In this document: positions 3,185-36,491 of the stretch, in pieces
Numbering within the stretch: the stretch's first letter is position 1
How the letters are laid out: every line of letters starts with the position of its first letter
Assembly (NCBI GenBank): GCA_010672825.2
Contig: JAAHFU020000003.1
Span: 868,001 to 932,000, forward strand
Direction: 5' to 3'
Source of the DNA: Leptolyngbya sp. SIO1E4
Lineage (GTDB): Bacteria > Cyanobacteriota > Cyanobacteriia > Phormidesmidales > Phormidesmidaceae
DNA length: 64,000 bases
Notes under the pieces: model-generated
What the model saw: the letters and a program-made list of their open reading frames with translations, nothing else
The model's database searches: none
Told to the model about the DNA's origin: nothing
Made by a program: the position numbers and the translations under genes

Positions 3185-3229
3185 TGTAGATATTGGCGTG
3201 CTGTCTACAGCGTTAGTATAATTGCACTC

Positions 3230-5304: not shown

Positions 5305-5419
5305 GTCCGGTCGAGACCTGTTCTGGCGACTCCTGTCTTGTTGAGTCGAGTCCGGTCAAGTCTGGCCCTGTCAGGTTAAGTCACGCCCCGTTGAGTCGAG
5401 TCCGGTCAAGTCATGTTTG
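5305..5419 (+). repeat. 5-nt-periodic degenerate array (23 x GTYNN)
   Basis: Twenty-three consecutive pentamers in one register from 5305. Position 1 is G in 22, position 2 is T in 19, position 3 is a pyrimidine in all 23, and positions 4-5 vary. Examples in order from 5340: GTTGA, GTCGA, GTCCG, GTCAA, GTCTG. The block GTTGA-GTCGA-GTCCG-GTCAA occurs twice (5340 and 5390). No CDS fits. It sits between an HNH gene and a hairpin, as does the array at 21,211. Confidence 0.85.
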
Positions 5420-5420
5420 C

Positions 5421-5447
5421 AACCCCACACCTTTTAGGCGTGGGGTT
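5421..5447 (+). terminator. hairpin after pentamer array
   Basis: AACCCCAC (5421-5428) pairs with GTGGGGTT (5440-5447), with a possible inner CCT/AGG stem. The 3' side is followed by GTCATTTATTT, a weak T-rich run. It lies between convergent genes and would end the transcript carrying the array; it may also serve the leftward gene at 5453-6088. Confidence 0.7.
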
Positions 5448-5452
5448 GTCAT

Positions 5453-7308: not shown

Positions 7309-7563
7309 GTTCAACACCCCATCACCCCGAAAGGGGACGGAAACGTGCCATGGAAAGTGACGCCTTCAAGTGTCACGGTAGGTTCAACACCCCATCACCC
7401 CGAAAGGGGACGGAAACGCCAGCTTGGTACATAGCGCCGAGTCCACCCGACATCGTTCAACACCCCATCACCCCGAAAGGGGACGGAAACCAGCCTCCAG
7501 TTTTGCTGGGGTGGCATAGTCAGTCGCGTTCAACACCCCATCACCCCGAAAGGGGACGGAAAC
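7309..7563 (+). CRISPR. CRISPR array 1: 4 repeats, 3 spacers
   Basis: Four identical 36-nt repeats start at 7309, 7382, 7455 and 7528. Each begins GTTCAACACCCCATC, contains the ACCCCGAAAGGGG hairpin and ends GACGGAAAC. The three spacers are 37 nt each (7345-7381, 7418-7454, 7491-7527). The repeat resembles the GTTCAACACCC...GGGGAC.GAAAC repeats of cyanobacterial type III arrays. Transcription is rightward from leader 1. No cas gene is in the window, so processing must depend on genes elsewhere. Confidence 0.95.
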
Positions 7564-13126: not shown

Positions 13127-13739
13127 GTTTCAATCCCCTTTCGGGGTGATGGGGTGTTGAACAAGCATCCGGCCTAGAGTCGATGCTGATTGCAGCGTGT
13201 TTCCGTCCCCTTTCGGGGTGATGGGGTGTTGAACCTGCAAGATATGCTGCGACGATGACATCCGGCCCTGCGTGTTTCCGTCCCCTTTCGGGGTGATGGG
13301 GTGTTGAACCTGAGGACCTGCCGCCAGCACACAATTACTGTGTGTTGTTTCCGTCCCCTTTCGGGGTGATGGGGTGTTGAACCTTTAGCCTTGCCATTAT
13401 CAATGAACTACATGAGGGTTTCCGTCCCCTTTCGGGGTGATGGGGTGTTGAACTTGCATTTGAAGGCTTCCTACAGAGGGAGGTGCCCAGTTTCCGTCCC
13501 CTTTCGGGGTGATGGGGTGTTGAACTGGAGGGAAAAGTATTTGCTCTCCATGGCTACTATGTTTCCGTCCCCTTTCGGGGTGATGGGGTGTTGAACGATG
13601 TGGGTCTCTGGCTCCACTGGTGCAGCCGGTGGGTTTCCGTCCCCTTTCGGGGTGATGGGGTGTTGAACCACGTTAGAAAATGCAGGCAAAACGGGAATAT
13701 TAGGTTTCCGTCCCCTTTCGGGGTGATGGGGTGTTGAAC
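13127..13739 (-). CRISPR. CRISPR array 2: 9 repeats, 8 spacers
   Basis: Nine 36-nt repeats start at 13127, 13199, 13274, 13347, 13418, 13490, 13561, 13633 and 13704, the same repeat as array 1 read on the other strand. Spacers are 35-39 nt. The repeat at 13127 has AA for CG near one end, the degeneracy expected of the leader-distal repeat, so the leader is on the right (13,740-14,043) and transcription is leftward. It converges on array 1 across the phage tail module. No cas genes nearby. Confidence 0.95.
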
Positions 13740-14192: not shown

Positions 14193-16919
14193 ATGTCTGA
14201 GCCCCTATCGTCTGACGAAAGGCTTGCCCTACTGCAAACCTTGAATCGATTGCCATCTTCTACTTTTGAGGAGATACGGTATGCCCTCGGGGCTCCCAGA
14301 GATGTTCTGCCAGGGGAGGTAGCGCCTCAAGGGAACCGAGGAGTAGCGTTGCTGGATTGGGCAACAGGGCCAACAGGATGTGGATTGCCTAAAGTACAAC
14401 AGGTTCTGAGGGATATCGTTGCTCGTTCCGAGACGACATCGCAATCAGACGAACCATCTCAGCAGGCTAAAGGCTCGTACTATGACCTCCGGGGGGCTAA
14501 TTTTGCCGGTGGCTTTGCTGAAACCGTGCACGGCAATCAGTTTGGCGGAACTCAGTTCAATGCGGCTCCTGAAACTGAAGAACCGACTTCCCAGGCCCAT
14601 TGGCTAGTTCCCTACCCCCAGAATCCTTTCTTCACGGGGCGAGAGAATTTACTTCAACAGATGCGAGCCACCCTCACTCAACAGAAACGGGCAGCTTTTC
14701 GGGGCTTAGGCGGTATCGGCAAAACCCAGACAGCAGTGGAGTATGTCTATCGCTATCAAAGCGAATACAAGCATATTTTCTGGGTCAGAGCAGAACCTGC
14801 AGAAGAGCTGCTCACGGGCTACACCCAGATTGCTCAAACCTTGCAATTACCGGGCTATGACCCGACTGATCGCCCTGCAGTGGTGGGGCTGGTCAATCGG
14901 TGGTTCGAGGCGAATGAGAGCTGGCTATTGGTTATCGATAATGCGGATGACCTGCGAGCCGTGCGATCGTATCTTCCCCTTCGAGGGGCTGGACATCTGC
15001 TGCTCACGACGCGGGCTCAGGCATTAGGAGATATCGCTCAACCGCTTGAGATAACGAAGATGGGAGCCGATGAAGGGGCACTGTTTTTGCTCAGGAGAGT
15101 GCGATTGTTGTCAGAAGATGCAGATCTCTCTGCAGCATCTGAGGCGGATTTGGGGGTGGCGAGAGCGATCGTGGAGGAAATGGATGGGTTACCCCTGGCT
15201 TTGGATCAGGCGGGTGCCTATATCGAAGAGCAATTCTTGACGCTGGAGGAATATCAAGAGCTATTTCAGGCTGAGAAAGCAGCGCTGCTTCAGGAAAGAG
15301 GTCAACTCGATCCAGATCATCCCAGCGTTACCGTCACCTTCAAATTGGCCTTTGAAAAAGTCGCTCAGCAGAATGCAGCAGCGGCTGACTTGCTCAGAGT
15401 GTGTGCGTTGCTGGCTCCCGATGAGATTCCTGAAGAGATCTTTAGTATTGGTTCAGCCAAGCTAGGAAAGCATTTAAGGCAGATTAGGCAATCTCAGTCG
15501 AAATTCATCAAAGTCATTTCTAATTTTGTAAGCGTCTTACATCGAAATAGGAGTGGTGAGGTTCAGGCAAACAACAAACTAACTTTATCCAAAGCGATTG
15601 CTGAGGCGGCCCGGTTTTCCTTGATTAGCCGTAATCCTCAGACCAAAACCTTAACCATTCATCGCCTGGTGCAAGAAGTGTTAAGGGCTGAGATGGATGA
15701 GGAGAGCCAGAAACAATGGGCGTCAGAGGTGATAGAAGCACTTGGAAGGGTGTTTCCTGATGTTGAGAAGTATGAAAATTGGGTTCAGTGCGATCGGGTG
15801 GCTGCCCATGCTCAGGCGGCTGCTCAACTCATGGCTGACTATGAACTGGCATCTGAAACCGCTGCGTGGCTGCTAGCTGCAACCGGCTACTACTTCAAAG
15901 AACAGGGACGCTATGAGGAAGCCGAACCCATCTACCTCCAAGCCTTGAAAATGAACCAGCAGCTCTTGGGTCAGCGCCATCCTCATGTCGCCATCAGTCT
16001 GAATAATCTCGCGGTACTCTACAAATCCCAAGGGCGCTATGAGGAAGCCGAACCCCTCTACCTCCAAGCCCTGGAAATGAGACAGCAGCTATTGGGAAAG
16101 AGCCATCCCCAGGTTGCTACCAGTCTGAATAATCTCGCGGTACTCTACAAATCCCAAGGGCGCTATGAGGAAGCCGAACCCCTCTACCTCCAAGCCCTGG
16201 AAATGAGACAGCAGCTATTGGGAAAGAGCCATCCCCAGGTTGCTACCAGTCTGAATAATCTCGCGTTGCTTTACGATTTCCAAGGGCGCTATGAGGAAGC
16301 CGAACCCCTCTACCTCCAAGCCCTGGAAATGAGACAGCAGCTGTTGGGCCAGCGCCATCCCCAGGTCGCTACCAGTCTGAATAATCTCGCGTTGCTCTAC
16401 AAATCCCAAGGGCGCTATGAGGAAGCCGAACCCCTCTACCTCCAAGCCCTGGAAATGTTCCAGCAGCTATTGGGAAAGAGCCATCCCGCTGTCGCCACCA
16501 GTCTGAATAATCTCGCGTTGCTCTACAAATCCCAAGGGCGCTATGAGGAAGCCGAACCCCTCTACCGCCAAGCCTTGGAAATGAGGCAGCAACTCTTGGG
16601 CCAGCGCCATCCTGAGGTCGCCACCAGTCTGAATAATCTGGCGAGTCTCTACCGAGACCAAGGGCGCTATGAGGAAGCCGAACCCCTCTACCGCCAAGCC
16701 CTGGAAATGAGACATCAGCTGTTGGGCCAGCGCCATCCTGAGGTCGCCACCAGTCTGAATAATCTGGCGAGTCTCTACCAGTCCCAAGGGCGCTATGAGG
16801 CAGCCGAACCCCTCTACCAACAAGCCTTGGCTATTTGTGAACAGATTCTAGGGCCAGAGCATCCTCATACTCAGGGCGTGAAAGGGAACCTTCAAAACCT
16901 CTTAGAAAAGAAAGGATAA
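14193..16919 (+). CDS. EAD-NB-ARC-TPR STAND immune-type protein
   Basis: A 908-residue protein. Residues 1-80 are an effector-associated-type domain (LLQTLNRLPSSTFEEIRYAL, GVALLDWATGPTGCGL) shared with the proteins at 39,254, 41,722 and 43,940. After a linker with a short pentapeptide-like stretch comes NB-ARC: P-loop GLGGIGKTQTAVEY, Walker B LLVIDNADD, sensor LLTTRAQAL and GLPLALDQAGAYI. The C-terminus has about eight 42-residue kinesin-light-chain TPRs (GRYEEAEPLYLQALEMRQQL type). TPRs would sense a ligand, NB-ARC would oligomerise, and the EAD would recruit a partner effector such as EAD-TIR. TPR-coding DNA is nearly identical between units, so repeat number can change. Confidence 0.85.
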   Translation: MSEPLSSDERLALLQTLNRLPSSTFEEIRYALGAPRDVLPGEVAPQGNRGVALLDWATGPTGCGLPKVQQVLRDIVARSETTSQSDEPSQQAKGSYYDLRGANFAGGFAETVHGNQFGGTQFNAAPETEEPTSQAHWLVPYPQNPFFTGRENLLQQMRATLTQQKRAAFRGLGGIGKTQTAVEYVYRYQSEYKHIFWVRAEPAEELLTGYTQIAQTLQLPGYDPTDRPAVVGLVNRWFEANESWLLVIDNADDLRAVRSYLPLRGAGHLLLTTRAQALGDIAQPLEITKMGADEGALFLLRRVRLLSEDADLSAASEADLGVARAIVEEMDGLPLALDQAGAYIEEQFLTLEEYQELFQAEKAALLQERGQLDPDHPSVTVTFKLAFEKVAQQNAAAADLLRVCALLAPDEIPEEIFSIGSAKLGKHLRQIRQSQSKFIKVISNFVSVLHRNRSGEVQANNKLTLSKAIAEAARFSLISRNPQTKTLTIHRLVQEVLRAEMDEESQKQWASEVIEALGRVFPDVEKYENWVQCDRVAAHAQAAAQLMADYELASETAAWLLAATGYYFKEQGRYEEAEPIYLQALKMNQQLLGQRHPHVAISLNNLAVLYKSQGRYEEAEPLYLQALEMRQQLLGKSHPQVATSLNNLAVLYKSQGRYEEAEPLYLQALEMRQQLLGKSHPQVATSLNNLALLYDFQGRYEEAEPLYLQALEMRQQLLGQRHPQVATSLNNLALLYKSQGRYEEAEPLYLQALEMFQQLLGKSHPAVATSLNNLALLYKSQGRYEEAEPLYRQALEMRQQLLGQRHPEVATSLNNLASLYRDQGRYEEAEPLYRQALEMRHQLLGQRHPEVATSLNNLASLYQSQGRYEAAEPLYQQALAICEQILGPEHPHTQGVKGNLQNLLEKKG

Positions 16920-18680: not shown

Positions 18681-18974
18681 ATGCAAGAACTTTCGATCGC
18701 GCTACCCAAGGGCGTTCCAACGCCTAAATATCAACTGTTTCAACGGGTTCGATATACCTATGCCCAGCAATCCCCCCGAGAAGGCACTGTCACTGGGTTT
18801 GAATACATCAGCGCAGCTGCGGCCCTGGCAGAAGGATTTGGTAGCTATGGCTGGCAGTACAGCATCCGCCCAGAAGCTGGGGTGAACAAACCTTTAGAAG
18901 CGTTGGTGGGAGCAAGATTTGAGTCCGTCATCGTTGAGGAACCAAATATCGAGGGAGTGGCAAATGACGCATGA
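18681..18974 (+). CDS. cassette gene 4, copy 2
   Basis: A 97-residue homologue of 1234-1524 (MQELSIALPKGVPTPKYQLF) with several substitutions in the middle (RYTYAQQSPREGTVTGFEYI), so this copy is more diverged than copies 1 and 3 are from each other. It overlaps the next gene by 11 nt. Confidence 0.65.
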   Translation: MQELSIALPKGVPTPKYQLFQRVRYTYAQQSPREGTVTGFEYISAAAALAEGFGSYGWQYSIRPEAGVNKPLEALVGARFESVIVEEPNIEGVANDA

Positions 18975-19158
18975 TGACCTGATCCCCCTCGATATGGCTG
19001 CAGGGTTGGAGGCGGGCTACCAAAAGCCCTATCGTGGCTGGGCACTGAAACATGAACTTGACCTCAATCACCTGATCGCTTGGGAGATGTTTAGACACGA
19101 GATGCTCTACATCGCCAGTCTGATGCCCTACTCGTTGCTAGGAGGGGATGACGCATGA
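18964..19158 (+). CDS. cassette gene 5, copy 2
   Basis: A 64-residue homologue of 1514-1702 (MTHDDLIPLDMAAGLEAGYQ). ATG inside the end of the previous gene (GCATGATG). It ends in GGDDA and overlaps the next ATG by 4 nt. Confidence 0.6.
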   Translation: MTHDDLIPLDMAAGLEAGYQKPYRGWALKHELDLNHLIAWEMFRHEMLYIASLMPYSLLGGDDA

Positions 19159-19682
19159 TTACGACCGATCAACTACTGGAACGCCTCAATAAACTCGAAG
19201 CGCAATCCCAGCTCGGCTTCGGCCCTGCCCCCATCACCAGAACGATTCACTGTAAACGCCGGGAAGAGTGCCTCTGGTACTTCTGGAATGGCCCTGAGGG
19301 GGCAGAACCGATCGCTTATGAAGCCATCACCGGCTATGCCCGTGAGCTGCGCATTACGCAGGGTGAGTACAAAAACAAACCGACCTATCATCTGCAGTTG
19401 GTGCTGGAGTGTCACAATCGCTCGTTTGTTTTAGAGGCGGGTGCAACCTCTGTGTTCTCCAAGGGGCTAATCCTAGCCCTGGCAGCGCTTACCCCAGAGC
19501 AATTGCAACAACCGATTACGGTCTGCCCTCAAGCCAGTCAGGACGAAGAAAAGGCATTGTTCTGTCGCCTCTATCAAGGTGCAGAGCTAATCCGAACCGT
19601 GTGGCCTAAAGAGGATGAATCTGCGGCGTTTCGCTTCCTATTGGAGCAAGCCAAAACCAATGTCACCGATGCCCATCGATAA
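19155..19682 (+). CDS. cassette gene 6, copy 2
   Basis: A 175-residue homologue of 1705-2247, with a five-residue-shorter N-terminus (MITTDQLLERLNKLEAQSQL) but otherwise nearly identical, including the FSKGLILALAALTPEQL helix. See that entry for the fold discussion. Confidence 0.65.
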   Translation: MITTDQLLERLNKLEAQSQLGFGPAPITRTIHCKRREECLWYFWNGPEGAEPIAYEAITGYARELRITQGEYKNKPTYHLQLVLECHNRSFVLEAGATSVFSKGLILALAALTPEQLQQPITVCPQASQDEEKALFCRLYQGAELIRTVWPKEDESAAFRFLLEQAKTNVTDAHR

Positions 19683-19752
19683 CTGGGCCCGATCGCTGCC
19701 AGATATCAGTGTGTGTTCCTTCCTCTTTCCCCTCATCGAGGCTCAATGCCTT

Positions 19753-19998
19753 ATGGATGAAGCTATCCGAATCTATTTTGAAACCAGTAATCGCCTGGAT
19801 GAAATCAAGCTCAAAGCCAGCAATGTCCGTATAGGCGATATCGAAACCTTAGTACAGCAATTCAAAGAAACCATTACCCAAAGAGCGATTGCGGCTGAAG
19901 CACTGTCAGCCCATGAATCACCTGAGATCAGAGCCGCGATCAACGAATTGAGAGGACTTAAACCATGTGGAGTAGACAGCAATACGACGATGCCCTAG
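19753..19998 (+). CDS. small helical protein unique to cassette copy 2
   Basis: An 81-residue protein starting MDEAIRIYFETSNRLDEIKL, almost wholly helical and likely coiled coil (IETLVQQFKETITQRAIAAE). It takes the slot of gene 7 in copies 1 and 3 but is not similar to it. Overlaps the next gene by 34 nt. Function unknown. Confidence 0.55.
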   Translation: MDEAIRIYFETSNRLDEIKLKASNVRIGDIETLVQQFKETITQRAIAAEALSAHESPEIRAAINELRGLKPCGVDSNTTMP

Positions 19999-20231
19999 CG
20001 GCATTGGAAAGCAAGGCCACGGCCCAAGAAGACTTGGCCACCAACCTGGGAAATAGTGTGACTAGCCTGAGCTATGTCATGGCAGAGCTGGCGAGGCGAC
20101 TGCGCCCCGATTTGACATTGATGTATGCCGACCATGATGAGGCGATGGTCGCGGCTCTGCTGGCAGAGTTTGGCGAGGACGGACTGATTGAAGCGCTGAT
20201 TGGCTACAGCCCCGCAACGCTTACGACTTAA
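19965..20231 (+). CDS. cassette gene 8, copy 2
   Basis: An 88-residue homologue of 2483-2773, with an eight-residue insertion in the first helix and the shared end RRLRPDLTLMYADHDEAM ... FGEDGLIEALIGYSPATLTT. It shows the native C-terminus lost at the IS junction in copy 1. Confidence 0.65.
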   Translation: MWSRQQYDDALAALESKATAQEDLATNLGNSVTSLSYVMAELARRLRPDLTLMYADHDEAMVAALLAEFGEDGLIEALIGYSPATLTT

Positions 20232-20276: not shown

Positions 20277-20732
20277 GTGAATCCAGGCTATGACGCCTAT
20301 TTGAACTCTGAGGCATGGCAGCGCAAACGACAGCAGGTTTTAGAACGAGATGGCTGGCAATGCCGGTGCTGTGACGCGATCGCTCAGGGGCGCTACTCCA
20401 AAGCAGATCTGCAAGTCCATCACCGGCACTATGACCACTTTGGCAATGAACCGCTCGAAGACCTGACCACCCTTTGCCCGGAATGCCATGACGCCATTAC
20501 AGCCGTTCATCGCAGACGACGGTATAGCGCTAAGAATCTGCCTGATTTATGTGCTGAACCAACCCTTTCAAGGTCTATTGAGGTTACGAAATATGGCACT
20601 GAAGTATCAAACCTTTCGGTTGATGGGGCTTGCCCCGATCATCCTGCACAACGGACGAACAGCCAATCCATTGGATCCATGGGCAAAGGCTCTCAAAGCT
20701 ATCTCAAGCAAGCGTTCCAAGACAGATGCTGA
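20277..20732 (+). CDS. HNH endonuclease, 3' end overlapping RAMP-like gene
   Basis: GTG start. The HNH/zinc core is VLERDGWQCRCCDAIA, DLQVHHRHYDHFGNEPLEDL, TTLCPECHDAITAVHRRRR. The HNH fold should finish by about residue 85. The rest reads through into the next gene in another frame for 140 nt, an unusually long overlap, so the original stop may have been lost by mutation or frameshift. It is the locus-2 counterpart of the HNH at 4892, though the two are not close in sequence and the gene order relative to the RAMP-like gene is reversed. Confidence 0.75.
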   Translation: MNPGYDAYLNSEAWQRKRQQVLERDGWQCRCCDAIAQGRYSKADLQVHHRHYDHFGNEPLEDLTTLCPECHDAITAVHRRRRYSAKNLPDLCAEPTLSRSIEVTKYGTEVSNLSVDGACPDHPAQRTNSQSIGSMGKGSQSYLKQAFQDRC

Positions 20733-21171
20733 CTATAAAGAGATGGCCCGAATTGAATGGTATGCCAGCCTTTATCAGAACAAAGAAGGCCGCATCATAT
20801 TGCCTGCCATGATGATTGAGGCGGCCCTGGTAAATGGCGCGAAAAAGCATAAGTTGGGCCAACAAGCCAAAGCCGGTCTATTTGTTGAATCTCATACCCT
20901 GCTGGAGTTTGAGGGATGTGAGCTGACAGTAGATGCCCTTTGGGAACGGGGCGAGAATATTTTGACAGTGGCTTGTAATATTCAGCGTAACAAGGTGATG
21001 AGAACCCGCTTCATTGCTGAGGAGTGGGCTGCGAATGTGACCGTGACCTATGACGACGGCCTGTTTAATGCGGCTCGGGTGATTGATGTCATGGAGGTTG
21101 TAGGGCTGCAGGTGGGTGTGGGTACCTGGCGTCCCCGCCACGGGAGGTTTGATACGGAGCCTGCTGGCTAA
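20593..21171 (+). CDS. RAMP/Cas7-like phage protein of unknown function
   Basis: A 192-residue protein. MGLAPIILHNGRTANPLDPW begins a conserved phage pattern, then a Lys-rich KALKAISSKRSKTDADYKEM segment. A middle IEAALVNGAKKHKLGQQAKA follows, and the C-terminal glycine-rich loop LQVGVGTWRPRHGRF resembles the G-loop at the end of RAMP-fold (Cas5/6/7) proteins. Homologous to the truncated gene at 4457. It is followed after 39 bp by a 5-nt-periodic array and hairpin, as in locus 1. RNA binding is a hypothesis; the fold is inferred from motif layout. Confidence 0.55.
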   Translation: MALKYQTFRLMGLAPIILHNGRTANPLDPWAKALKAISSKRSKTDADYKEMARIEWYASLYQNKEGRIILPAMMIEAALVNGAKKHKLGQQAKAGLFVESHTLLEFEGCELTVDALWERGENILTVACNIQRNKVMRTRFIAEEWAANVTVTYDDGLFNAARVIDVMEVVGLQVGVGTWRPRHGRFDTEPAG

Positions 21172-21210
21172 AGCGCTTTTGACCTGGGCATGTCGTTAAA
21201 CGGCCTTGCG

Positions 21211-21285
21211 GTTAGGTCGAGTCGTGTTTGGTATGGCTAGGCATAGCCATGCTTGGTAAGGCCATGTGGTATCAGGTCTGGCTTT
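21211..21285 (+). repeat. 5-nt-periodic degenerate array (15 x GYNNN)
   Basis: Fifteen consecutive pentamers from 21211: GTTAG, GTCGA, GTCGT, GTTTG, GTATG, GCTAG, GCATA, GCCAT, GCTTG, GTAAG, GCCAT, GTGGT, ATCAG, GTCTG, GCTTT. Position 1 is G in 14 of 15 and position 2 a pyrimidine in all 15. Same register logic as the array at 5305 but different pentamers, so the period and GY are kept rather than the sequence. A strong hairpin follows within 10 bp. Confidence 0.8.
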
Positions 21286-21291
21286 CCAGTA

Positions 21292-21332
21292 GGAACCTTT
21301 ACGGTGTGAAAGCCGTGAAGGTTCCTTATTTT
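21292..21332 (+). terminator. strong hairpin terminator after pentamer array 2
   Basis: GGAACCTTTACGG (21292-21304) pairs with CCGTGAAGGTTCC (21313-21325), 13 bp with a single G-T wobble and an 8-nt loop, followed by TTATTTT. It closes the transcript carrying the RAMP-like gene and the array. Confidence 0.85.
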
Positions 21333-22757: not shown

Positions 22758-25700
22758 ATGCAAGTTCTGAAAGGGTTTTGGCAGTTTCTCAACACTGATG
22801 TGCGAGAGATCCCTTGGGGAGAACTGGCTGAAAAAGGCATTGAAGCCGTCACTGCTACGAATGATTTGGGCGAAGCTTGGGAAGAACAAGCGCCCCATAT
22901 CAAAGCACTCACACCCTATCTGCAACAGGTAGAACCGTTTCTTACAACCCTGGATTCCCCGGTCACACAGCTGGCTATCTCTGGACTGCCCTTTGTTTCT
23001 ATCGGCATTGGGCTACTGAGGCTTTATGTCGGGCTATCCAAAACAGAACCCACCACCGAAAGCGCTGTCGTCATTGCTGCTCAATTGGCTTATTTGCAAA
23101 GCCTGGAAGCGCTACTGAGCAACCTGAATGATGAAACGCTGAAGGCCAAACTCAACCAAGTTTCGCTGAAAGCACTGGTCAAAAAACAGCTCACTCGTCT
23201 CGACACCCTAGAACTCAGCTCTACTGAATTAAAAGCGGTGACCAGCCGATTTCGAGAGTCCGTGCTGGCCACGCAGTTGGGGAATGCCTTGGCTGAGCAA
23301 TTACAACAAGCCGGTCTTGATGAGACAGAAACGCGCCGGTTGGTAGAGCAGGTCATTTGGGGTACCCATCGCTATCTGCATCAGGCGATCGCGGAGGCTG
23401 GAGAGAGTGTAGAACCACTGGCAGAGGTCTATCGCACGGGTGGACAACCGATACAAGACCGTTATGACAGTATTGCCACCTACTTGAATGAGGTCATTAC
23501 ACCGCTGCCTCAAGAACAGATCTTTGATGAACGTAACCCACTGATCCGCCTTCAAGACATCTATGTTCAACTCGACGTCCAACCGCTAACACAGGCGGGT
23601 GAAAGGCAAGAAGATACCAGTCCAATTAATAGCCATACCTGGGCCAGAGACCTACTTGAGCAACCTGAGGATAAACCCCGCAAGGTCATGTTTGTCGAAG
23701 GGGAAGCAGGGCGAGGTAAATCCGTTTTCTGTCGCATGTTGGCGGATTGGGTGCGGCGTGAAATGCCGTTTTCATACATTCCGCTGTTGATCCGGTTGCG
23801 TCACATTCGGACACTAGCCAATAACCTGACAGAGACCCTGGAAGACTGCCCTGACCTGGAGCAGGTTAAATTTGTTCGGGGAGATTCAGACTGGCTCGCA
23901 GATCGCAATACCCGGTTCTTAATCATCCTGGATGGGTTTGATGAACTGTTGTTAGAGGGGCGAGCCACTGGTGGATTGAAGGAATTTTTGCAGCAGGTCG
24001 CTGATTTTCAGGCTCGGAGCCACCATCAATGCTTGGTGACAGGAAGACCTTTGGCGCTGCAAGGCGTTGACCGGCTGATTACCCAAACCAAAAACCTGGA
24101 ACGGGCACGGCTTGAACCCTTGAGCGATAGCCTGCGAGAGCAGTGGCTAGAGAACTGGCAAGCCCTTTTTGAGGAAGCAGAGGTCACTCGGTTTCGGGAT
24201 TTCATCCAGGCTTGCCCCGATGAGATTGCTGACAAGCTGGCCCGAGAACCGCTGTTGATTTATCTATTGGCGCGGTTACACCGGGAAAGACGTCTCACCC
24301 GTGAAATGTTTGCTGACACTAGCGATCGGCAGATCCAAGCCAAGCTGCGAGTGTATCGGGAGTCTGTCAACTGGGTACTGGAGAAGCAACGGCAGGATCA
24401 AAACCTGCGACTGGCGGGCCTGGATGATCTGGAAGACCTGCGAGACGTGTTGCGAGAAGCGGCCCTCTGTGTGGTGCAGTCGGGCAATGAAACGGCCCGG
24501 TTGACGATGTTAAAAGACCGATTTCAAGATACCGCCAATCCAGTGGCAAAGTTCCTCAAACAATCGCAGCAAACCACGGGCCAATCAGACGACAAGGCGC
24601 TCAATAATCTACTCACCACGTTTTATCTCAAGCCTGGGGAGGGAGATAAGCGCGGGTCAGTGGAATTTGCCCACAAGAGCTTTGGTGAATACCTCTTTGC
24701 TGAACGGCTCAAAGCGGCTTTTGAAGCCTGGACAGAGATGGATCGCCGGGGAAAACGCCTGATTTTGGATGAGCGCACCGTAAACGAGCAAATCTATGAC
24801 CTGCTGGGTTATGGCGGCCTCAGCGTCGAAATCGTGGAGTACTTATTCGAGCTATTGCAGGAGAGTGATCTGGATCGAGTCAAGCTGTTTGAGCGCCTTC
24901 ACGAGTTTTATCAACGCTGGTGTGCGAAAGATTTTCTGAATCAGCGCCCCACAGAAAATTTGCCCCAGAAAAAGATGCTGCAGCTTACAGATCAGGAGAT
25001 CCTAACTGGCCTTACTCAGGTGGATGTGTTTGCTGGGCTCAACGTGCTGATTATGCTCTTTAAGCTACACGCAGCGGCTCAGCCTGATGGATACCCCCAT
25101 CTACCAGAAGATTCTCCCAAACCTGATATCTGGTTTCACCCTTGCAGTGAACCGGAAACAGACACGTTTGATTCAGGCCAACTGCTCAAAATCATTTACT
25201 ACGCAGACTCTTTAGGATTAGGAGTTTTCACTAGGATTGTTGGCCCGCACCTTTCAAGAGCCTACCTCAACAGCGCCGACCTCTCCAGTGCCTACCTCAA
25301 CAGCGCCAACCTCGCCAGTGCCAACCTCTCCAGCGCCTACCTCCCCAGCGCCTACCTCTACAGCGCCAACCTCGCCAGAGCCAACCTTTCCAGCGCCGAC
25401 CTCGCCAGCGCCATCCTCATCGTTGCCAACCTTTCCAGCGCCATCCTTTCCAGCGCCAACCTCGCCAGAGCCAACCTCGACAGCGCCAACCTCTCCAGCG
25501 CCGACCTCGACAGAGCTGGCCTCTACAACGCCAACCTCGACCACACCAACCTCGCCAGCGCCAACCTCGCCAGCGCCAGCCTCGCCAGCGCCTATCTCAC
25601 TGGCGCCAACCTCGCCAGCGCCAACCTCGCCAGCGCCAACCTCGCCAGCGCCTGCCTCTACAGCACCAATCTCGCCAGCGCCAACCTCGCCAGCGCCAAC

Positions 25701-26015
25701 CTCTCCAGCGCCTACCTCTACAGCACCAACTTTTCCAGCGCCAACCTCGCCAGCGCCGACCTCTACAGCGCCAATCTTGATGGGGCGATTCTGCTCAACA
25801 CAAATTTCCGTGAAGCCAAGAACTTCAATCGTCAGCAGTTAGAAGGCGATACCCCACCGTTAATTTGCAATGTGGCGCTGCCCTCAGAAGTTGAGGTTGA
25901 TGGAAATCGAGACTGCGATCGCTTACCGACTGTCTTGAGAAAAAGATATCCGGATGCGTTTGAAACGCTCGAAGCGGCTAAAGCGTATGTCAATAAGCGG
26001 CGGCAACAAGATTGA
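22758..26015 (+). CDS. NACHT NTPase with C-terminal pentapeptide repeats
   Basis: A 1085-residue STAND protein. Residues 1-300 are helical (EEQAPHIKALTPYLQQVEPF). NACHT follows: Walker A VEGEAGRGKSVFCRMLADW, Walker B FLIILDGFDELLLEG, with a helical/winged-helix arm to ~residue 790 including EFAHKSFGEYLFAERLKAAF. From ~830 to 1020 are pentapeptide repeats of A(N/D)L(A/S)S type forming a quadrilateral beta helix. Proteins of this build are predicted phage sensors. It lies between a rightward portal and a truncated leftward portal. Confidence 0.85.
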   Translation: MQVLKGFWQFLNTDVREIPWGELAEKGIEAVTATNDLGEAWEEQAPHIKALTPYLQQVEPFLTTLDSPVTQLAISGLPFVSIGIGLLRLYVGLSKTEPTTESAVVIAAQLAYLQSLEALLSNLNDETLKAKLNQVSLKALVKKQLTRLDTLELSSTELKAVTSRFRESVLATQLGNALAEQLQQAGLDETETRRLVEQVIWGTHRYLHQAIAEAGESVEPLAEVYRTGGQPIQDRYDSIATYLNEVITPLPQEQIFDERNPLIRLQDIYVQLDVQPLTQAGERQEDTSPINSHTWARDLLEQPEDKPRKVMFVEGEAGRGKSVFCRMLADWVRREMPFSYIPLLIRLRHIRTLANNLTETLEDCPDLEQVKFVRGDSDWLADRNTRFLIILDGFDELLLEGRATGGLKEFLQQVADFQARSHHQCLVTGRPLALQGVDRLITQTKNLERARLEPLSDSLREQWLENWQALFEEAEVTRFRDFIQACPDEIADKLAREPLLIYLLARLHRERRLTREMFADTSDRQIQAKLRVYRESVNWVLEKQRQDQNLRLAGLDDLEDLRDVLREAALCVVQSGNETARLTMLKDRFQDTANPVAKFLKQSQQTTGQSDDKALNNLLTTFYLKPGEGDKRGSVEFAHKSFGEYLFAERLKAAFEAWTEMDRRGKRLILDERTVNEQIYDLLGYGGLSVEIVEYLFELLQESDLDRVKLFERLHEFYQRWCAKDFLNQRPTENLPQKKMLQLTDQEILTGLTQVDVFAGLNVLIMLFKLHAAAQPDGYPHLPEDSPKPDIWFHPCSEPETDTFDSGQLLKIIYYADSLGLGVFTRIVGPHLSRAYLNSADLSSAYLNSANLASANLSSAYLPSAYLYSANLARANLSSADLASAILIVANLSSAILSSANLARANLDSANLSSADLDRAGLYNANLDHTNLASANLASASLASAYLTGANLASANLASANLASACLYSTNLASANLASANLSSAYLYSTNFSSANLASADLYSANLDGAILLNTNFREAKNFNRQQLEGDTPPLICNVALPSEVEVDGNRDCDRLPTVLRKRYPDAFETLEAAKAYVNKRRQQD

Positions 26016-27091: not shown

Positions 27092-28486
27092 ATGAATTTC
27101 CTACAAAAGCCCAAAAACTCAACAGAGGCAATTCGCGAGATCGCGGAGCGTCTTTATTTGAATCGTCAGGCAAGGGGAGAAGCGGGGGATGCAGAAAGTG
27201 ACTGGGCCAAAGCAGAGCGCATTGCCAAGAGTCCCATACGCAGCAGGCTATTCCATGTCCATCAGCGCTTTATATGGGTTGAAAAGCAAGCGATCGAGCC
27301 GACTGCGAGATGGGTAGAGCGAGCGGATTTGTTTCGCATTATTGAAAAGCTCAGCCCCACCATTGAAGCCCTGGGCGTGATCGCGATTCCATTAGTTTTG
27401 TTTTTTGCTGCTCAGAGCTATGAAGAACGCCTACTTCAGCGTGAACAAACTTATCAAGAGAATGTACGCCAGCAAGAGTTAGAGCGATCGCAGCAGCAAG
27501 CTGTAACCGATTACTTAAATCAGCTCTCTACCATTCTGCTGGATATGGAAGGCGATCTTGATGATTCGCAAAATGAAGGGCTCCGAACACTAACGACAGC
27601 AACTACCTTGACCCTGCTGCGTGACCCTAACTTAGATGGAAACCGCAAAGGACAGGTGATTGAGTTTCTTTCTCAGATGAACCTTGTGCAACGGGAATTC
27701 GTATACGGCCCACAACGCCCAGAAGATACAGTTCCTATTATTTCCCTCCGCACTGCCGACCTCAGCAGTGCCGACCTCCGCGGTACCGACCTCAGCAATG
27801 CCGACCTCAGCTTTGCCGACCTCAGCTTTGCCAACCTCCGCCGTGCCGACCTCTTCTTTGCCGACCTCAGCTTTGCCAACCTCCGCCGTGCCGACCTCTT
27901 CTTGGCCGACCTCAGCGATGCCGACCTCAGCGGTGCCGACCTCAGCGATGCCATCCTCCACAGTGCCGACCTCAGCAATGCCGACCTCTTCTTGGCCGAC
28001 CTCAGCGATGCCGACCTCAGCGATGCCAACCTCAGCGGTGCCGACCTCCGCTTTGCCGACCTCAGCGGTGCCGACCTCAGCGGTGCCAACCTCAGCAATG
28101 CCGACCTCTTCTTGGCCGACCTCAGCCTTGCCGACCTCCTCTTTGCCGACCTCAGCGGTGCCAACCTCAGCGGTGCCAACCTCAGCGGTGCCGACCTCAG
28201 CTTTGCCAACCTCCGCCGTGCCGACCTCTTCTTTGCCGACCTCAGCGGTGCCAACCTCAGCGGTGCCTTCCTCAGCGGTGCCAACCTCAGCGGTGCCGAC
28301 CTCCGCTTTGCCAACCTCCGCCGTGCCGACCTCCGCTTTGCCGACCTCAGCGGTGCCAACCTCAGCGGTGCCTTCCTCGGCGGTGCCGAATTTGCTGAGG
28401 CATATCTGTGCGAAACTCAATTACCTGAAGGGATTGACTTAGACCCTAATCGAGATTGTGGATGGTTTGAGGAGCTCTTTGAGTAG
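27092..28486 (+). CDS. membrane-anchored pentapeptide repeat protein
   Basis: A 464-residue protein. Residues 8-45 resemble DUF2934 (AIREIAERLYLNRQARGEAG ... DWAKAERIAKS). One transmembrane helix at ~residues 95-112 (ALGVIAIPLVLFFAAQSY) leads to a coiled coil (LLQREQTYQENVRQQELERS). Residues ~215-440 are about 45 pentapeptides, mostly ADLSG/ANLRR type, encoded by 15-nt units. Orientation is opposite to the terminase and portal genes it separates, so it is an acquired gene in the packaging operon. Function unknown; a membrane-tethered beta-helix scaffold. Confidence 0.8.
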   Translation: MNFLQKPKNSTEAIREIAERLYLNRQARGEAGDAESDWAKAERIAKSPIRSRLFHVHQRFIWVEKQAIEPTARWVERADLFRIIEKLSPTIEALGVIAIPLVLFFAAQSYEERLLQREQTYQENVRQQELERSQQQAVTDYLNQLSTILLDMEGDLDDSQNEGLRTLTTATTLTLLRDPNLDGNRKGQVIEFLSQMNLVQREFVYGPQRPEDTVPIISLRTADLSSADLRGTDLSNADLSFADLSFANLRRADLFFADLSFANLRRADLFLADLSDADLSGADLSDAILHSADLSNADLFLADLSDADLSDANLSGADLRFADLSGADLSGANLSNADLFLADLSLADLLFADLSGANLSGANLSGADLSFANLRRADLFFADLSGANLSGAFLSGANLSGADLRFANLRRADLRFADLSGANLSGAFLGGAEFAEAYLCETQLPEGIDLDPNRDCGWFEELFE

Positions 28487-28604: not shown

Positions 28605-29927
28605 CTACCAGTTTGACCTGATTTGTGCCCTGCGATCGCGCTTAAGACGAGGCTTAATGAGAGGTTGCAATGCATAGCGCAGTGAATCAATGAGGTGATT
28701 GTGCTTATCTACGATCGCGGCTAGCACCTCTTCTGTGAGGCGATCAATCTTGTAGCTGTAGAGCCGCGCCTCTTCTGCGGTGTGCTTGCAGCGAGGGTGG
28801 ATGACAATCTTTTCATAGCTGCGTAGATGCTCGATACCATCCTCAACCGAACCAGGCCACTTAGGGCAGGCGATCAGTCGAGGGATTGGGGGCACTTCTT
28901 CACCACGGCCCCGACGAACATGGCTAATGGATTCAGGGCGGCTATTGTCAGCGCGTACCTCGTAGCGATCGATGCCAGGAATGTCTCGGAGCCAGCGGCG
29001 GCTAACCTGGTCAAGTTCAAGCTTGTGGGCCAGGGATTCCCGCTCAACATAGAGCCTACGCCCACGCACCCAGCAGCGAACTGCAGCAGTGGGGTCAGAG
29101 GCAAAGCCCCAATCACCGCCATGGTAAGGGCCATCCCAATCTGCCCCTGGCTCAAAATCATCAACAATCCACTTGCCGCCCAGGATCTGAGCATCTGTGC
29201 GCTCTAACGGTTCTCCTTCCCAGATGTGAGCGTAGAGATCTGGGTCAGTGCGCTGCATCTCCCGGCGTTCTTCATCCAGCGTGGCGGGAAAGTGGGGGTT
29301 CAAATCCCAGTTGATGCGCTGGATATAACCATTGGCTTTGCCTTTAGTGATGAATTCCTCATAGATGGGGTCACTCTTCTCGTGGGGATTGAACGTAACC
29401 CAAATCTCTGAGCCCTCCTCACGAATCGTGGGCACCAATACCCGCCATGATTCAGCACTGATGGTCTGGGCTTCTTCGATCCAGCAATGGGTTAAGCCCG
29501 CCATCGACTTGATGCTTTGCACATTGCGGCGGATGCCCTTGAAGGTAAAGCTGGTGCCGTTTGCGCCGACGATCGCGGCTTCCTGAATTTCATAGAAATC
29601 CTCCAGCCCTAGCGCTTCAATGCGCTCTTTGAGCAGGTAATGAACCGAGTCCTTGATGCTGTTTTGGAACTCACGAGCACAGAGCACGCGGATTTTACGG
29701 CGTGCGCCCTCAATGAGTAAGGCATCAGCGGCTGCATAACTTTTGCCGCTGCCTCGTCCGCCGTATAGACACTTGTAGCGCTGAGGTTTGAGGAGTGGCT
29801 TTGCCCATTCAGAGAGGTCAGCGATCGCGGCATCGATGACCTCGGGTGGAACGGGTGGAGCCTCAGCCTTTAAGCCGAATTCATCCTCAACCGCCGATAC
29901 CAGCTCATCTAAGCGCTGCGACCCCAT
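28605..29927 (-). CDS. terL: phage terminase large subunit
   Basis: A 440-residue Terminase_3/6-type packaging motor. ATPase: Walker A LYGGRGSGKSYAAADAL, Walker B with HCWIEEAQTIS, coupling motif VTFNP. Nuclease: GGDWGFASDPTA, ADNSRPESI and DKHNHLIDSLRYAL supply acidic residues of the RNase H fold. The length is normal. The start overlaps the end of terS by 19 nt. With HU, integrase and switch genes to the right it defines a leftward prophage. Confidence 0.95.
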   Translation of the reverse strand: MGSQRLDELVSAVEDEFGLKAEAPPVPPEVIDAAIADLSEWAKPLLKPQRYKCLYGGRGSGKSYAAADALLIEGARRKIRVLCAREFQNSIKDSVHYLLKERIEALGLEDFYEIQEAAIVGANGTSFTFKGIRRNVQSIKSMAGLTHCWIEEAQTISAESWRVLVPTIREEGSEIWVTFNPHEKSDPIYEEFITKGKANGYIQRINWDLNPHFPATLDEERREMQRTDPDLYAHIWEGEPLERTDAQILGGKWIVDDFEPGADWDGPYHGGDWGFASDPTAAVRCWVRGRRLYVERESLAHKLELDQVSRRWLRDIPGIDRYEVRADNSRPESISHVRRGRGEEVPPIPRLIACPKWPGSVEDGIEHLRSYEKIVIHPRCKHTAEEARLYSYKIDRLTEEVLAAIVDKHNHLIDSLRYALQPLIKPRLKRDRRAQIRSNW

Positions 29928-30421
29928 CCGGCCTCCTTGAGCCGTGCAACCAGCTCATGGGGCGTGCGGTAGCGCGTCAGCAACTCTGCCAGGTATTCTT
30001 CATCCCCGACCGGCCGCAACTTATTGCGCTGTTCTAATAGCCGACAGAAACCATTCAGCGCCGCGCCATAGGACTGCACTGAGGTGGGGTTGCCTGCCTC
30101 GCGCCGAGCGATATCCAACATTTCATCGATCGCTCGTAGCTGCCCCGCCAAGGTGTCGTACTCACCGGCAGCGATCGCGGTTGGGGTACGAGGCTTTTCA
30201 CCGGAATGTCGGTCACGCGGGCGCTCAAAGGTGACAACCTTGGGTCGTTCCGGCTGGGGCAGGCCATCGCGCAGGGCCTCCCAGTCGTCGCCTGCTTCCT
30301 TGGCTGCCGCTATCCAACGCTGCACAGTGCGGCGCGCTACATCTAAGCGCCGCGCAATTTCGCTGATGGTGATGCCCTTGATTAAGAGCGCCTTGGCTTG
30401 CTCTCGCTTGTCCTGTGCCAT
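29909..30421 (-). CDS. terS: phage terminase small subunit
   Basis: A 170-residue protein. Residues 8-50 form a homeodomain-like HTH (ALLIKGITISEIARRLDVAR then RTVQRWIAAAK), followed by a helical region (AGQLRAIDEMLDIARREAGN) and RNKLRPVGDEEYLAEL. Immediately upstream of terL, as in many siphophages. It recognises the packaging site and delivers DNA to TerL. Confidence 0.8.
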   Translation of the reverse strand: MAQDKREQAKALLIKGITISEIARRLDVARRTVQRWIAAAKEAGDDWEALRDGLPQPERPKVVTFERPRDRHSGEKPRTPTAIAAGEYDTLAGQLRAIDEMLDIARREAGNPTSVQSYGAALNGFCRLLEQRNKLRPVGDEEYLAELLTRYRTPHELVARLKEAGWGRSA

Positions 30422-30694: not shown

Positions 30695-31864
30695 TCAAAC
30701 TACGCATAATTTGTTAGACCTCCGAATGAGTTGAATCTGCTTGAGTCCGAACTGTCCAAGTCGCTTCCAATGCTGGTCGTAGACACTGACTTTCTTGGAC
30801 TTGGCAGTGTCAGTGAAGCCACCTACCCATCCCGTCAGTACTTGGCTTTTAGTCGTGACTTGCACTTTGTCGCCAGCACGGTAACCAAACGGCGTAATGG
30901 TGCCGCCCTTGCGTTTACGGATATTGCCTTTGCTGGGATTGTCGAAGTGCAGGGCACGACGAAAGTAAGCCGGTCTCGTGATAACTCGAAACGGCGCGAC
31001 TGTCACTGTTACATCACCTATCCAATCACGCCCGGTATCGACAGGAGCGTATCGGACAAACTGACTAGCCGCCAATGCAATGCCATCAACTGCGTGAGTT
31101 TCAGGCTTGGCATTGGACTTATTCTGTTTGTCCTTAATCAGTCCTAATTGCTTCCGAATCTGGCTAGTGCCGTTGCCGTCTTTTTGCCAGCCATGCCGAA
31201 TGACGACGGGGGCGAGCTTAGACAGTGCATCAACAGCTTTATACTGCGCTGCCATGACAGGGCTAAAGCCTTTTCCTGACTTCGCACTCTTGCGACCGCT
31301 AGTCAAATCTACGTCAGCTTTGACGACTTCGTAGACAATCGACACGACCGGAAACACCTTGCATAGTTCGGAGATAACGCGAATCTCCATTTGACGCGAT
31401 GCCCAAATGGACGGCGGCGTCTTGGATTGACGGCGATTGTTGAACCGCTTTTGACGATGCGCTCTCAGACGAAACGGCACCTTACGGTTAATTCGTCTAC
31501 CACGTCTAACCCGACGCTGCAGCGCCCGGCCCCGAACATTTTTAACGACTTTACCGTTCTTGATGACGGCAGCACCTAAACGCTCTTTAACTCGCTGAAA
31601 TGGCAAGACTAGGTGAGCCATATACAGTGTGAACTGAGCTGACTGCACTGCAATTCCTGAATAGGACTTGCCAGGGTCACAGCCTACGTGAATGGGTTGA
31701 ATAGCTCTGTCTGATGGTTTAGCGATCAGCCGAATATAGTAGATGCCAGCATCATTCCAGCGTCCTTCAGCCTTGCCGTCCCTGACCCAGCGCCGTGCAC
31801 GACTGGGTTTTGTTGGCATCAGCGGCGTTCCGGTGCTGTCGATGACTGGTACTCGTAGTTGCAT
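30695..31864 (-). CDS. isrB: IsrB, RNA-guided RuvC nickase of the IscB group
   Basis: A 389-residue protein. The N-terminal PLMP/RRXRR region is MQLRVPVIDSTGTPLMPTKP then SRARRWVRDGKA. RuvC-I is IHVGCDPGKSYSGIAV; an Arg-rich bridge helix follows (RALQRRVRRGRRINRKVPFR). RuvC-II Glu is in SIVYEVVKADV and RuvC-III in ETHAVDGIALAAS. No HNH insert (no CxxC or DHIxP) is present between RuvC-II and -III, so this is IsrB rather than IscB. IsrB proteins nick the non-target strand with an omega RNA. Catalytic residues look intact. Confidence 0.88.
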   Translation of the reverse strand: MQLRVPVIDSTGTPLMPTKPSRARRWVRDGKAEGRWNDAGIYYIRLIAKPSDRAIQPIHVGCDPGKSYSGIAVQSAQFTLYMAHLVLPFQRVKERLGAAVIKNGKVVKNVRGRALQRRVRRGRRINRKVPFRLRAHRQKRFNNRRQSKTPPSIWASRQMEIRVISELCKVFPVVSIVYEVVKADVDLTSGRKSAKSGKGFSPVMAAQYKAVDALSKLAPVVIRHGWQKDGNGTSQIRKQLGLIKDKQNKSNAKPETHAVDGIALAASQFVRYAPVDTGRDWIGDVTVTVAPFRVITRPAYFRRALHFDNPSKGNIRKRKGGTITPFGYRAGDKVQVTTKSQVLTGWVGGFTDTAKSKKVSVYDQHWKRLGQFGLKQIQLIRRSNKLCVV

Positions 31865-34977: not shown

Positions 34978-35220
34978 CTAAGTCGTAAGTATTGCCGGGC
35001 TTTGCCCGACCAACTCTTCAATCAGCCCATCTTCACCAAACTCTGCCAGCAGGTCAGCAATCATCGGCGCGTCGTGGTCAACGTAGATAAGGGCCAGATC
35101 TGGGCGCAGCTGTCGAATCAATTCAGCCAGGATGCGAGCCAAGCGATCGATGTCGTCTCGCAGTTCATCGGGCTCTGTTGCCTGGCTTTCTAAGGCTTCT
35201 AGGGCAGCGTCATAGTTCAT
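34978..35220 (-). CDS. cassette gene 8, copy 3
   Basis: An 80-residue protein starting MNYDAALEALESQATEPDEL and ending VGQSPAILTT. The intact reference for the copy disrupted at 2483. Last gene of cassette copy 3; overlaps gene 7 by 4 nt (ATGA). Confidence 0.65.
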   Translation of the reverse strand: MNYDAALEALESQATEPDELRDDIDRLARILAELIRQLRPDLALIYVDHDAPMIADLLAEFGEDGLIEELVGQSPAILTT

Positions 35221-35444
35221 AACTCGCCTCTCCAGGGCTGCAGTAATTGGGTTGCATCAAGGCCATAGAGCAACGAGATCGCGCTGAGTTCATTCGCATC
35301 GCAGAAGGTGACATTGACCTTGAAAAGAAAAGGTTTAATTCGGTGCTCTGTGAGGGGAGCCGGTTCCCAAAGGCTAAGTCGCCATCGTCCCGGCCCCACG
35401 GATGTGATGCACGCCTGTAGAGAAACTGAAGTCACAACAGGCAT
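35217..35444 (-). CDS. cassette gene 7, copy 3
   Basis: A 75-residue protein from MPVVTSVSLQACITSVGPGR, nearly identical to 2259-2486; differs near SAISLLYGLDATQL. Function unknown. Confidence 0.6.
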   Translation of the reverse strand: MPVVTSVSLQACITSVGPGRWRLSLWEPAPLTEHRIKPFLFKVNVTFCDANELSAISLLYGLDATQLLQPWRGEL

Positions 35445-35455
35445 GGGCTTTCTCC

Positions 35456-35998
35456 TCACCTACAGGCATCAGCAACATTGGTCTTGGCGCGTTCCAGCAA
35501 AAACCGAAACGCGGCGGATTCATCCTCTTTAGGCCATACGGTTCGGATTAGCTCTGCACCTTGATAGAGGCGACAGAACAATGCCTTTTCTTCGTCCTGG
35601 CTGGCTTGAGGGCAAACCGTAATGGGGGATTGCAATTGCTCTGGGGTCAGGGCTGCCAGGGCTAGAATCAACCCCTTCGAGAACACAGACGTGGCACCCG
35701 CTTCCAAAACAAACGAGCGATTGTGACACTCCAGCACCAGTTGCAGGTGATAGGTGGGTTTGTTTTTGTACTCACCCTGCGTAATGCGCAGCTCACGGGC
35801 ATAGCCGGTGATGGCCTCGTAAGCGATCGGTTCTGCCCCCTCAGGGCCATTCCAGAAATACCAGAGGCATTCTTCACGACGTTTGCAATGAATCGTGCGG
35901 GTTACTGGGGCAGGGCCAAAGCCAAGTTGCGATCGCGCTTCGAGTTTATTGAGACGCTCTAGTAGCTGGTTGAGGGTGTAGTGATCCGTGGTGGCCAT
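35456..35998 (-). CDS. cassette gene 6, copy 3
   Basis: A 180-residue protein nearly identical to 1705-2247. In the middle (ARELRITQGEYKNKP) it instead matches copy 2, so the copies form a mosaic, suggesting recombination between them. Confidence 0.65.
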   Translation of the reverse strand: MATTDHYTLNQLLERLNKLEARSQLGFGPAPVTRTIHCKRREECLWYFWNGPEGAEPIAYEAITGYARELRITQGEYKNKPTYHLQLVLECHNRSFVLEAGATSVFSKGLILALAALTPEQLQSPITVCPQASQDEEKALFCRLYQGAELIRTVWPKEDESAAFRFLLERAKTNVADACR

Positions 35999-36000
35999 CG

Positions 36001-36189
36001 CTAGTCGTCCCCCAACAACGAATAGGGCATGAGGCTGGCGATGTAGAGCATTTCGTGGCGAAACATTGCCCAGGCGAGGGGATGGCTGACATCGAGTTCA
36101 TGCTTTAAAGCCCAGCCACGATAGGGCTTTCGGTAGCCAACCTCCAGCCCTGCAACCATATCAAGGGGGATCAGGTCATCATGCGTCAT
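36001..36189 (-). CDS. cassette gene 5, copy 3
   Basis: A 62-residue protein from MTHDDLIPLDMVAGLEVGYR, the homologue of 1514-1702. ATG inside the end of gene 4. Function unknown. Confidence 0.6.
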   Translation of the reverse strand: MTHDDLIPLDMVAGLEVGYRKPYRGWALKHELDVSHPLAWAMFRHEMLYIASLMPYSLLGDD

Positions 36190-36469
36190 CATCCATTCCC
36201 TCGATGTTGGATTCTTCAACAATCTCAGCCTCAAAACACTTGCCTACCAGGTCTTCTAGGGGCTTACCGATACCAGCTTCGTGGCGGATCTCATATTGCC
36301 AGCCACAGGTACCAAACCCTTCCGCCAGAGCAACAGCCGGGCTGATATACCCCATGCCGGTGATGACGCCCTCAGCAGGTTTAGGTTTAGCGGTATAGCG
36401 AACCCACTGAAACAGTTGATATTTTGGGGTTGGGACATCCCCAGGTAGCGCGATGGAAAAAAGTTGCAT
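36179..36469 (-). CDS. cassette gene 4, copy 3
   Basis: A 96-residue protein, near-identical to 1234-1524 from PTPKYQLFQWVRYTAKP on, but starting MQLFSIALPGDVPTP instead of MQELSIALPKDVPTP. Function unknown. Confidence 0.65.
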   Translation of the reverse strand: MQLFSIALPGDVPTPKYQLFQWVRYTAKPKPAEGVITGMGYISPAVALAEGFGTCGWQYEIRHEAGIGKPLEDLVGKCFEAEIVEESNIEGMDDDA

Positions 36470-36491
36470 GTCACACAGTCCTCTGTAGCGG

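Follow-up and report, generated by a model that had tools for sequence, protein, structure and literature searches.

A VIPR locus with an upstream HNH gene in a degraded cyanobacterial prophage

VIPR was reported in 2026 as a noncontiguous, RNA-guided mode of DNA recognition that was proposed to be older than CRISPR, and the main text of the report describes it as a RAMP protein working with a vrRNA that consists of 9-16 YNNGG repeats (GGY/NN) and a structured tail (PMC13142463, bioRxiv 2026). In each repeat, the NN letters are those that pair with double-stranded DNA, one base being skipped from one pair of letters to the next, and this code was tested experimentally in the SUSP1 and Pseudomonas fulva systems (PMC13142463). 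Seven types are distinguished, mostly in phages and proviruses, in which VIPR acts as a phage weapon against rival phages, and the associated vap genes (vap1-6) include those of DNA-binding proteins, nucleases and helicases (PMC13142463). HNH, cyanobacteria and terminase are unmentioned in the main text of that report (PMC13142463).

Here, the window, that is, the whole 64,000-nucleotide stretch of DNA analysed, was found to hold a locus (locus 2) with the following parts:

20277-20732, plus strand: HNH nuclease gene with a GTG start, whose first ~85 codons encode the HNH domain (PF01844, E 2.6e-4; PHROG 589 HNH, 2.7e-13)
20593-21171, plus strand: intact vipr gene, RAMP/Cas7-like, 192 aa (PHROG 4652, 2.9e-44; PDB 36pp_D; AF2 model)
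21211-21285, plus strand: array 2, almost certainly the vrRNA guide region, 15 pentamers GYNNN (position 5: G 8, T 5, A 2)
21291-21326, plus strand: 15-bp hairpin, probable vrRNA 3′ tail and possibly a transcription terminator (z -6.0)

The 3′ end of the HNH gene overlaps the start of vipr by 140 nt in the +1 frame, and vipr itself is an intact 192-codon ORF with its own ribosome-binding-like GAGG and with the invariant residues of its clade. The parts list that the sequence-only reading had drawn up, an HNH gene, an intact gene for a RAMP-like protein, an array and a hairpin, holds, the upstream HNH being real by its PF01844 match. The setting is a degraded prophage, with a portal gene (PF05133) beginning at 21331, and the window as a whole has the look of three prophage remnants, nested or side by side, with recognised terminase genes (28605-30421, minus strand) confined to the third. 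Several side observations belong to this prophage region: one phage gene cassette occurs in three copies (1234-2773 and 18681-20231 on the plus strand, 34981-36729 on the minus strand); CRISPR-like direct repeats GTTTCCGTCCCCTTTCGGGGTGATGGGGTGTTGAAC with a period of about 73 lie in opposite orientation at 7310-7563 and 13195-13453, separate from the VIPR locus; and a 389-aa RRXRR protein (30695-31864, minus strand; PF14239, 1e-42), IsrB/IscB-like and with no HNH domain found in it, is encoded between fragments of small terminase and integrase genes.

The identity of the RAMP-like protein carries the assignment of the locus. By phmmer, the window vipr product matched PDB 36pp_D, the SUSP1 Vipr, at 5e-23 as the sole solved chain, and a five-sequence profile reached 8.8e-90 against 36pp, a value inflated by the near-identical wV8 homologue that the profile contains. 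The AF2 model (45 sequences as input; pLDDT 94.6) has a RAMP fold with an RRM core and a glycine-rich loop, and the nearest solved folds found by Foldseek were type III Cas7/Csm3 subunits (Z 10-11, up to 11.1); 36pp was not among the Foldseek matches listed (library to April 2026), and the fold likeness is thus one to Csm3/Cas7. The glycine-rich G-loop GVGTWRPRHGRF lies near the C-terminus, and its glycines are invariant across 45 relatives. A Vipr model is absent from both Pfam and PADLOC. The earlier description of 20593-21171 as RAMP-like is therefore borne out by PHROG 4652, by 36pp and by the Csm3/Cas7 folds, and since this product is Vipr, locus 2 is a VIPR system. It is of an already known kind, and the testable VIPR features were found at locus 2, with the exception of a target for its own guide; that it is a phage-encoded VIPR system with array 2 as its guide RNA, in the full mechanism, is a reading in which we have high confidence.

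Compared with the types described in the main text of the VIPR report (PMC13142463), the locus is like type II (SUSP1/Felixounavirus and a Pseudomonas fulva prophage) in its Vipr family, in its pentamers of G-Y plus two variable bases, in its structured 3′ tail and in its phage setting, and the window Vipr is 29-35% identical to those of the published SUSP1/Felixounavirus and P. fulva systems. However, type II has four vrRNAs, a pseudoknot tail and a DNA-binding vap1, whereas the window locus has one array, a plain 15-bp hairpin, an HNH gene that overlaps vipr and a first G that is less strictly kept (8/15). With types III-V it shares the presence of a nuclease gene in its operon; as far as the main-text description goes, types III and V are tied to defence islands, whereas the HNH-bearing loci related to the window occur in prophages and virus contigs and have guides that match rival phages. 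The class 1 backbone of Cas7/Csm3 resembles Vipr in its RAMP fold and in being a repeated RNA-binding subunit that breaks the pairing at regular intervals, but a VIPR locus is without the CRISPR repeat and the other cas genes of class 1 CRISPR-Cas, and its guide has a 5-nt instead of a 6-nt period with a noncontiguous code. Between 18.5 and 22.8 kb of the window, neither a CRISPR-type repeat nor a second RAMP was found, and the locus therefore does not belong to class 1 CRISPR-Cas.

Array 2 reads GTTAG GTCGA GTCGT GTTTG GTATG GCTAG GCATA GCCAT GCTTG GTAAG GCCAT GTGGT ATCAG GTCTG GCTTT. The counts given by the sequence-only reading were reproduced, with G at position 1 in 14 of the 15 units and a pyrimidine at position 2 in all 15 (a G1/Y2 score of 29/30); positions 3-4 are mixed, and position 5 is G in 8, T in 5, A in 2 and never C. 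The short length of the array (75 bp), and nothing else, speaks for a chance stretch of low-complexity, G/T-rich sequence. None of 5,000 dinucleotide shuffles attained the score, either of the 159-bp intergenic region (maximum 25) or of the array itself (maximum 24). Over the whole 64 kb and both strands, array 2 and array 1, which belongs to a second locus of the window (see below), are the only 75-nt stretches with at least 26/30. Their lag-5 autocorrelations, a check that had been proposed beforehand, are 0.46 for array 2 and 0.53 for array 1, each above all 2,000 of its shuffles, and in a log-odds scan they score 35.3 and 49.2, respectively, whereas 60 Markov shuffles of the window reached no more than 19.3; equal or higher scores within the window come only from genes of pentapeptide-repeat proteins, with their 15-bp codon repeats. 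These genes give the strongest period-5/15 signals of the window and are able to mimic pentamer arrays, and large NB-ARC/TPR-like and NACHT/pentapeptide-like proteins are encoded amid the prophage genes at 14193-16919, 22758-26015, 27092-28486 and 39254-41593.

Relatives were collected by scans of GTDB (48 loci) and IMG/VR (309 stretches, 80 kept). A same-strand array of at least 10 pentamers is present at 119 of 133 Vipr loci, as compared with 27 on the opposite strand, so the period is not lacking in relatives, and the array placement is conserved in relatives from many phyla. Together with the shuffles, these relatives already refute the chance origin, which retains practically no probability. 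Over the loci, position 1 is G in 87%, position 2 is Y in 92% and position 5 is G in 91%, percentages that are partly ascertained because these three positions are the ones weighted by the array finder, while base use at positions 3-4 is close to even across hundreds of units, a flatness that is not ascertained. The earlier proposal of selection on the period is supported in its idea that the period is functional, but it was incomplete: a scaffold, GGY or a variant, is conserved in each pentamer, and the remaining letters vary because they are guide sequence under the VIPR code (PMC13142463). We read the scaffold of array 2 as DGY/NN, looser than the published GGY at position 5, which is G in about 90% of the clade's units (partly ascertained) against 8/15 here.

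The hairpin had been described as a 13-bp stem with a T-rich tail 6 bp behind the array. The distance and the stem were confirmed, but the stem, which is perfect, has 15 bp (-26.9 kcal/mol, z -6.0), and the T-rich tail, TTATTTTGG, is present but weak. Counterparts of this hairpin occur at five related loci (L015, L018, L021, L024 and L027), and an Rfam search gave no match.

The nearest relative is a prophage locus of Leptolyngbya sp. ULC077bin1 (L015), with which the window Vipr pairs in a maximum-likelihood tree (100/98). Its parts follow one another as in the window, an HNH gene, vipr, 23 pentamers and a hairpin of 12 bp, with the same HNH/vipr overlap and a Vipr 59% identical, but the L015 locus differs from the window in its number of pentamers, in its strict GGY-like scaffold and in its guide letters. 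On the tree, the loci with an upstream HNH gene cluster, with 2 label changes as compared with 16 for shuffled labels and with none of 500 shuffles as low; the upstream HNH is an accessory gene (vap) specific to one Vipr clade. The HNH frame runs 86-287 nt, mostly about 100-150 nt, into vipr in the +1 frame at 35 of the 38 loci inspected. As overlaps of genes go, this one (L015, L016-L108) is of unusual length and regularity, and vipr itself is conserved in the other frame. A programmed frameshift that fuses HNH to Vipr is disfavoured, and simple coupling of the two genes is more likely, because vipr has its own GAGG-ATG start. In two further loci (L466, 1614-1750, plus strand; L370, 3997-4140, minus strand), pentamer arrays are followed by a conserved ~70-nt element, GACCCATTCC.TGGGTAGACTC...GTCGAACCGTGAACATTCCAAGTTCTCTCCGAGCTGGTGA, for which Rfam gave no match.

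The published code was examined in the sister systems, where the arrays of relatives were decoded as letters 3-4 of each pentamer and the collected DNA was scanned with skips of 0, 1, 2 and 4. The best skip-1 match is that of the L089 guide to the large terminase gene (TerL) of virus L074, with nine consecutive units perfect and 23/24 over 12 units, and the skipped base falls at the wobble positions of the codons of VKRRYNRATMWD. In the first scan, which was unbiased, this guide (24/28) reached 10.61 in -log10 p, as compared with up to 9.45 for permutations of unit order, and was the only HNH-clade guide whose match clearly exceeded the permuted controls. Additionally, the first eight units of the L068 guide match the homologous TerL site of L064 (DRRTIWEQ) in 16/16 letters, and the L074 guide matches the gene 3′ of TerL in L290 (TIQWIEPAATD) in 21/22; as with L089, the skips of these two matches fall at wobble positions. 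In IMG/VR, the L089 core (18 fixed letters) gave 81 matches, 80 of them with the TerL motif, in frame and with the skip at the wobble position, and for 74 of the 81 the reading frame is open over 200 codons or more; the 16-letter core of L068 matched at least 120 stretches, with the TerL motif in 78 of the 80 analysed. These later IMG/VR matches have a conserved protein motif in common and do not count as independent of one another. The copies in the carriers themselves fit their guides worse, at 17/24 for L089 (VKRRYSRASIWS), 13/16 for L068 and 14/22 for L074 (TSVWIEPPSTD). When arrays with a match of at least 19/20 in another locus were counted over 10-unit windows, skip 1 gave 10, skip 0 and skip 2 gave 1 each and permuted guides gave 2; three of the ten skip-1 arrays are to be discounted, as they come from loci fetched by pattern. 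The L466 guide gave a match of 20-21/24, as compared with 19/24 for its own copy, and was left out of account because the match is weak. These results support that the published 1-nt-skip code holds in the HNH clade, and they suggest that the packaging genes of rival phages are the targets of its guides.

The same results bear on whether the array could instead be a cis-regulatory RNA, by which Vipr regulates itself at the 3′ end of its own mRNA or which serves termination or mRNA stability, with no guide role. Such a role would suit the place of the array between the vipr stop codon and a terminator-like hairpin, a placement common in the clade. However, up to several arrays are present at related loci, some of them 5′ of vipr (L013, L011, L031 and L033), a fixed RNA-binding element needs no such variety as is seen at positions 3-4, the sister guides decode to genes of rival phages, and the SUSP1 vrRNAs are described as free RNAs of ~100 nt (PMC13142463). 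We therefore consider a purely cis-regulatory array very improbable and retain the guide RNA reading.

The window holds a second locus (locus 1) with the following features:

2780-4417: IS200/IS605 element, with TnpA at 2780-3238 on the minus strand and TnpB within 2984-4417 on the plus strand (OrfB_IS605, Cas12f1-like TNB domains)
4450-4914, plus strand: vipr remnant of a second lineage, without about 70-80 N-terminal residues (PHROG 4652, 3.9e-5; alignment with intact L005 and L006)
4913-5299, plus strand: second HNH gene, of an unrelated lineage, 3′ of the vipr remnant (PF01844, 1.8e-8)
5305-5419, plus strand: array 1, 23 pentamers with the scaffold GTY/NN, position 3 always C or T
5419-5449, plus strand: hairpin behind array 1 (-21.8 kcal/mol, z -4.75)

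The IS element lies directly 5′ of the vipr remnant, where the missing 5′ part of vipr would be, and other cyanobacteria have intact proteins of 206-212 aa (L005, L006) to which the remnant can be aligned. The order vipr-then-HNH recurs in L005, L006, L014 and most of L143-L168, and position 3 is C or T in all 23 units of array 1 and in all 16 of L005. The two arrays of the window had been taken as independent, and rightly so: they are not copies of one element, because they belong to different Vipr lineages with different scaffolds, GTY/NN and DGY/NN, and their difference in sequence follows from lineage and guide content. A third vipr remnant was observed on contig C4 at about 897307-897540 (L002 1-3234, minus strand), beside a portal-gene remnant; it is 45% identical over the C-terminal 77 residues, its array is GGA/NN-like with G in 25/26 at positions 1-2 (Markov null maximum 21), and its hairpin resembles that of array 2. 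Therefore, the genome has three VIPR loci, each with a scaffold of its own (GTY/NN, DGY/NN and GGA/NN), and vipr is broken in two of them.

A target of the window arrays was sought widely. For array 2, a direct scan of the window and all loci with all skips and orders gave none; two 10-unit patterns with up to 3 mismatches gave one match in its own genome, which at 19/30 overall is a chance match; no target was found in 63 genomes of the order; 386 genomes of the phylum gave one match of 23/30 in a distant lineage, with about 1 expected; 388 genomes of the class gave 5 matches, fewer than the reversed-pattern control; and exact 8-unit cores gave 30, 47 and 22 matches in IMG/VR, which extend to at most 24/30. 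A target of array 1 was likewise not found, nor were targets of the L015 and L020 guides in their own genomes or in 111 genomes of the genus of L020.

These searches bear on activity, namely on whether the arrays are decaying VIPR relics without function in this strain, which would be compatible with their VIPR identity. The target of array 2 was not found in the genomes and IMG/VR scanned, the prophage is degraded, two of three vipr copies are truncated, one of them beside the IS605 element, and position 5 of array 2 is loosened (8/15 G). However, the window vipr is intact with the clade's invariant residues kept, the array 2 hairpin is perfect, and positions 1-2 are intact at 29/30, although random decay would strike all scaffold positions alike; we thus read the loosened position 5 as a looser scaffold. 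Loss of function is a possibility to be taken seriously, but we incline against it as the general account of the arrays; given the degraded prophage and the two truncated vipr copies, the system of locus 2 may nevertheless be out of use in this strain.

Based on the findings in this work and on the published VIPR systems, we propose how locus 2 could work as a VIPR system. The pentamer array would be transcribed into a vrRNA, the hairpin forming its 3′ tail, and the small RAMP protein Vipr would coat this transcript to form a ribonucleoprotein, with the G-Y scaffold of each pentamer held by one Vipr subunit at about 5 nt per subunit. The two variable bases after G-Y would pair with one strand of the DNA target, read as NN-skip-NN-skip, by which the complex could find genes of competing phages. 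The HNH protein from the overlapping gene would probably be brought in as the nuclease that nicks or cuts the target, or would at least assist the block, cleavage being suggested by its HNH domain; the window copy, if active, would act in this way.

For the clade as a whole, we put forward a further proposal that we hold only tentatively, as one that comes close to being balanced by doubt: the HNH-vipr clade could be a phage-borne VIPR type that cuts, and not only represses, rivals, with guides directed against codons that hardly vary in packaging genes (TerL and the next gene), where the skip code would defeat synonymous escape and amino-acid substitutions in the TerL of the carrier would protect it from its own guides, and HNH and Vipr might be translationally coupled through the conserved overlap of ~100-150 nt.

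In conclusion, this work, in which the locus was found from raw sequence through a period-5 array and a RAMP-like gene, adds a cyanobacterial case to VIPR and defines an HNH-bearing clade. What is new is the HNH accessory of one Vipr clade, the three VIPR loci and scaffolds in one genome, and the sister guides that match rival packaging genes. Through the sister systems, the 1-nt-skip code has been tested computationally and independently beyond SUSP1 and P. fulva, and phage packaging genes are indicated as targets, the guide agreeing less well with the copy of its own carrier. If HNH-vipr lies outside the published types, it would represent a new VIPR variant, phage-borne, nuclease-bearing and aimed at the packaging genes of rivals.
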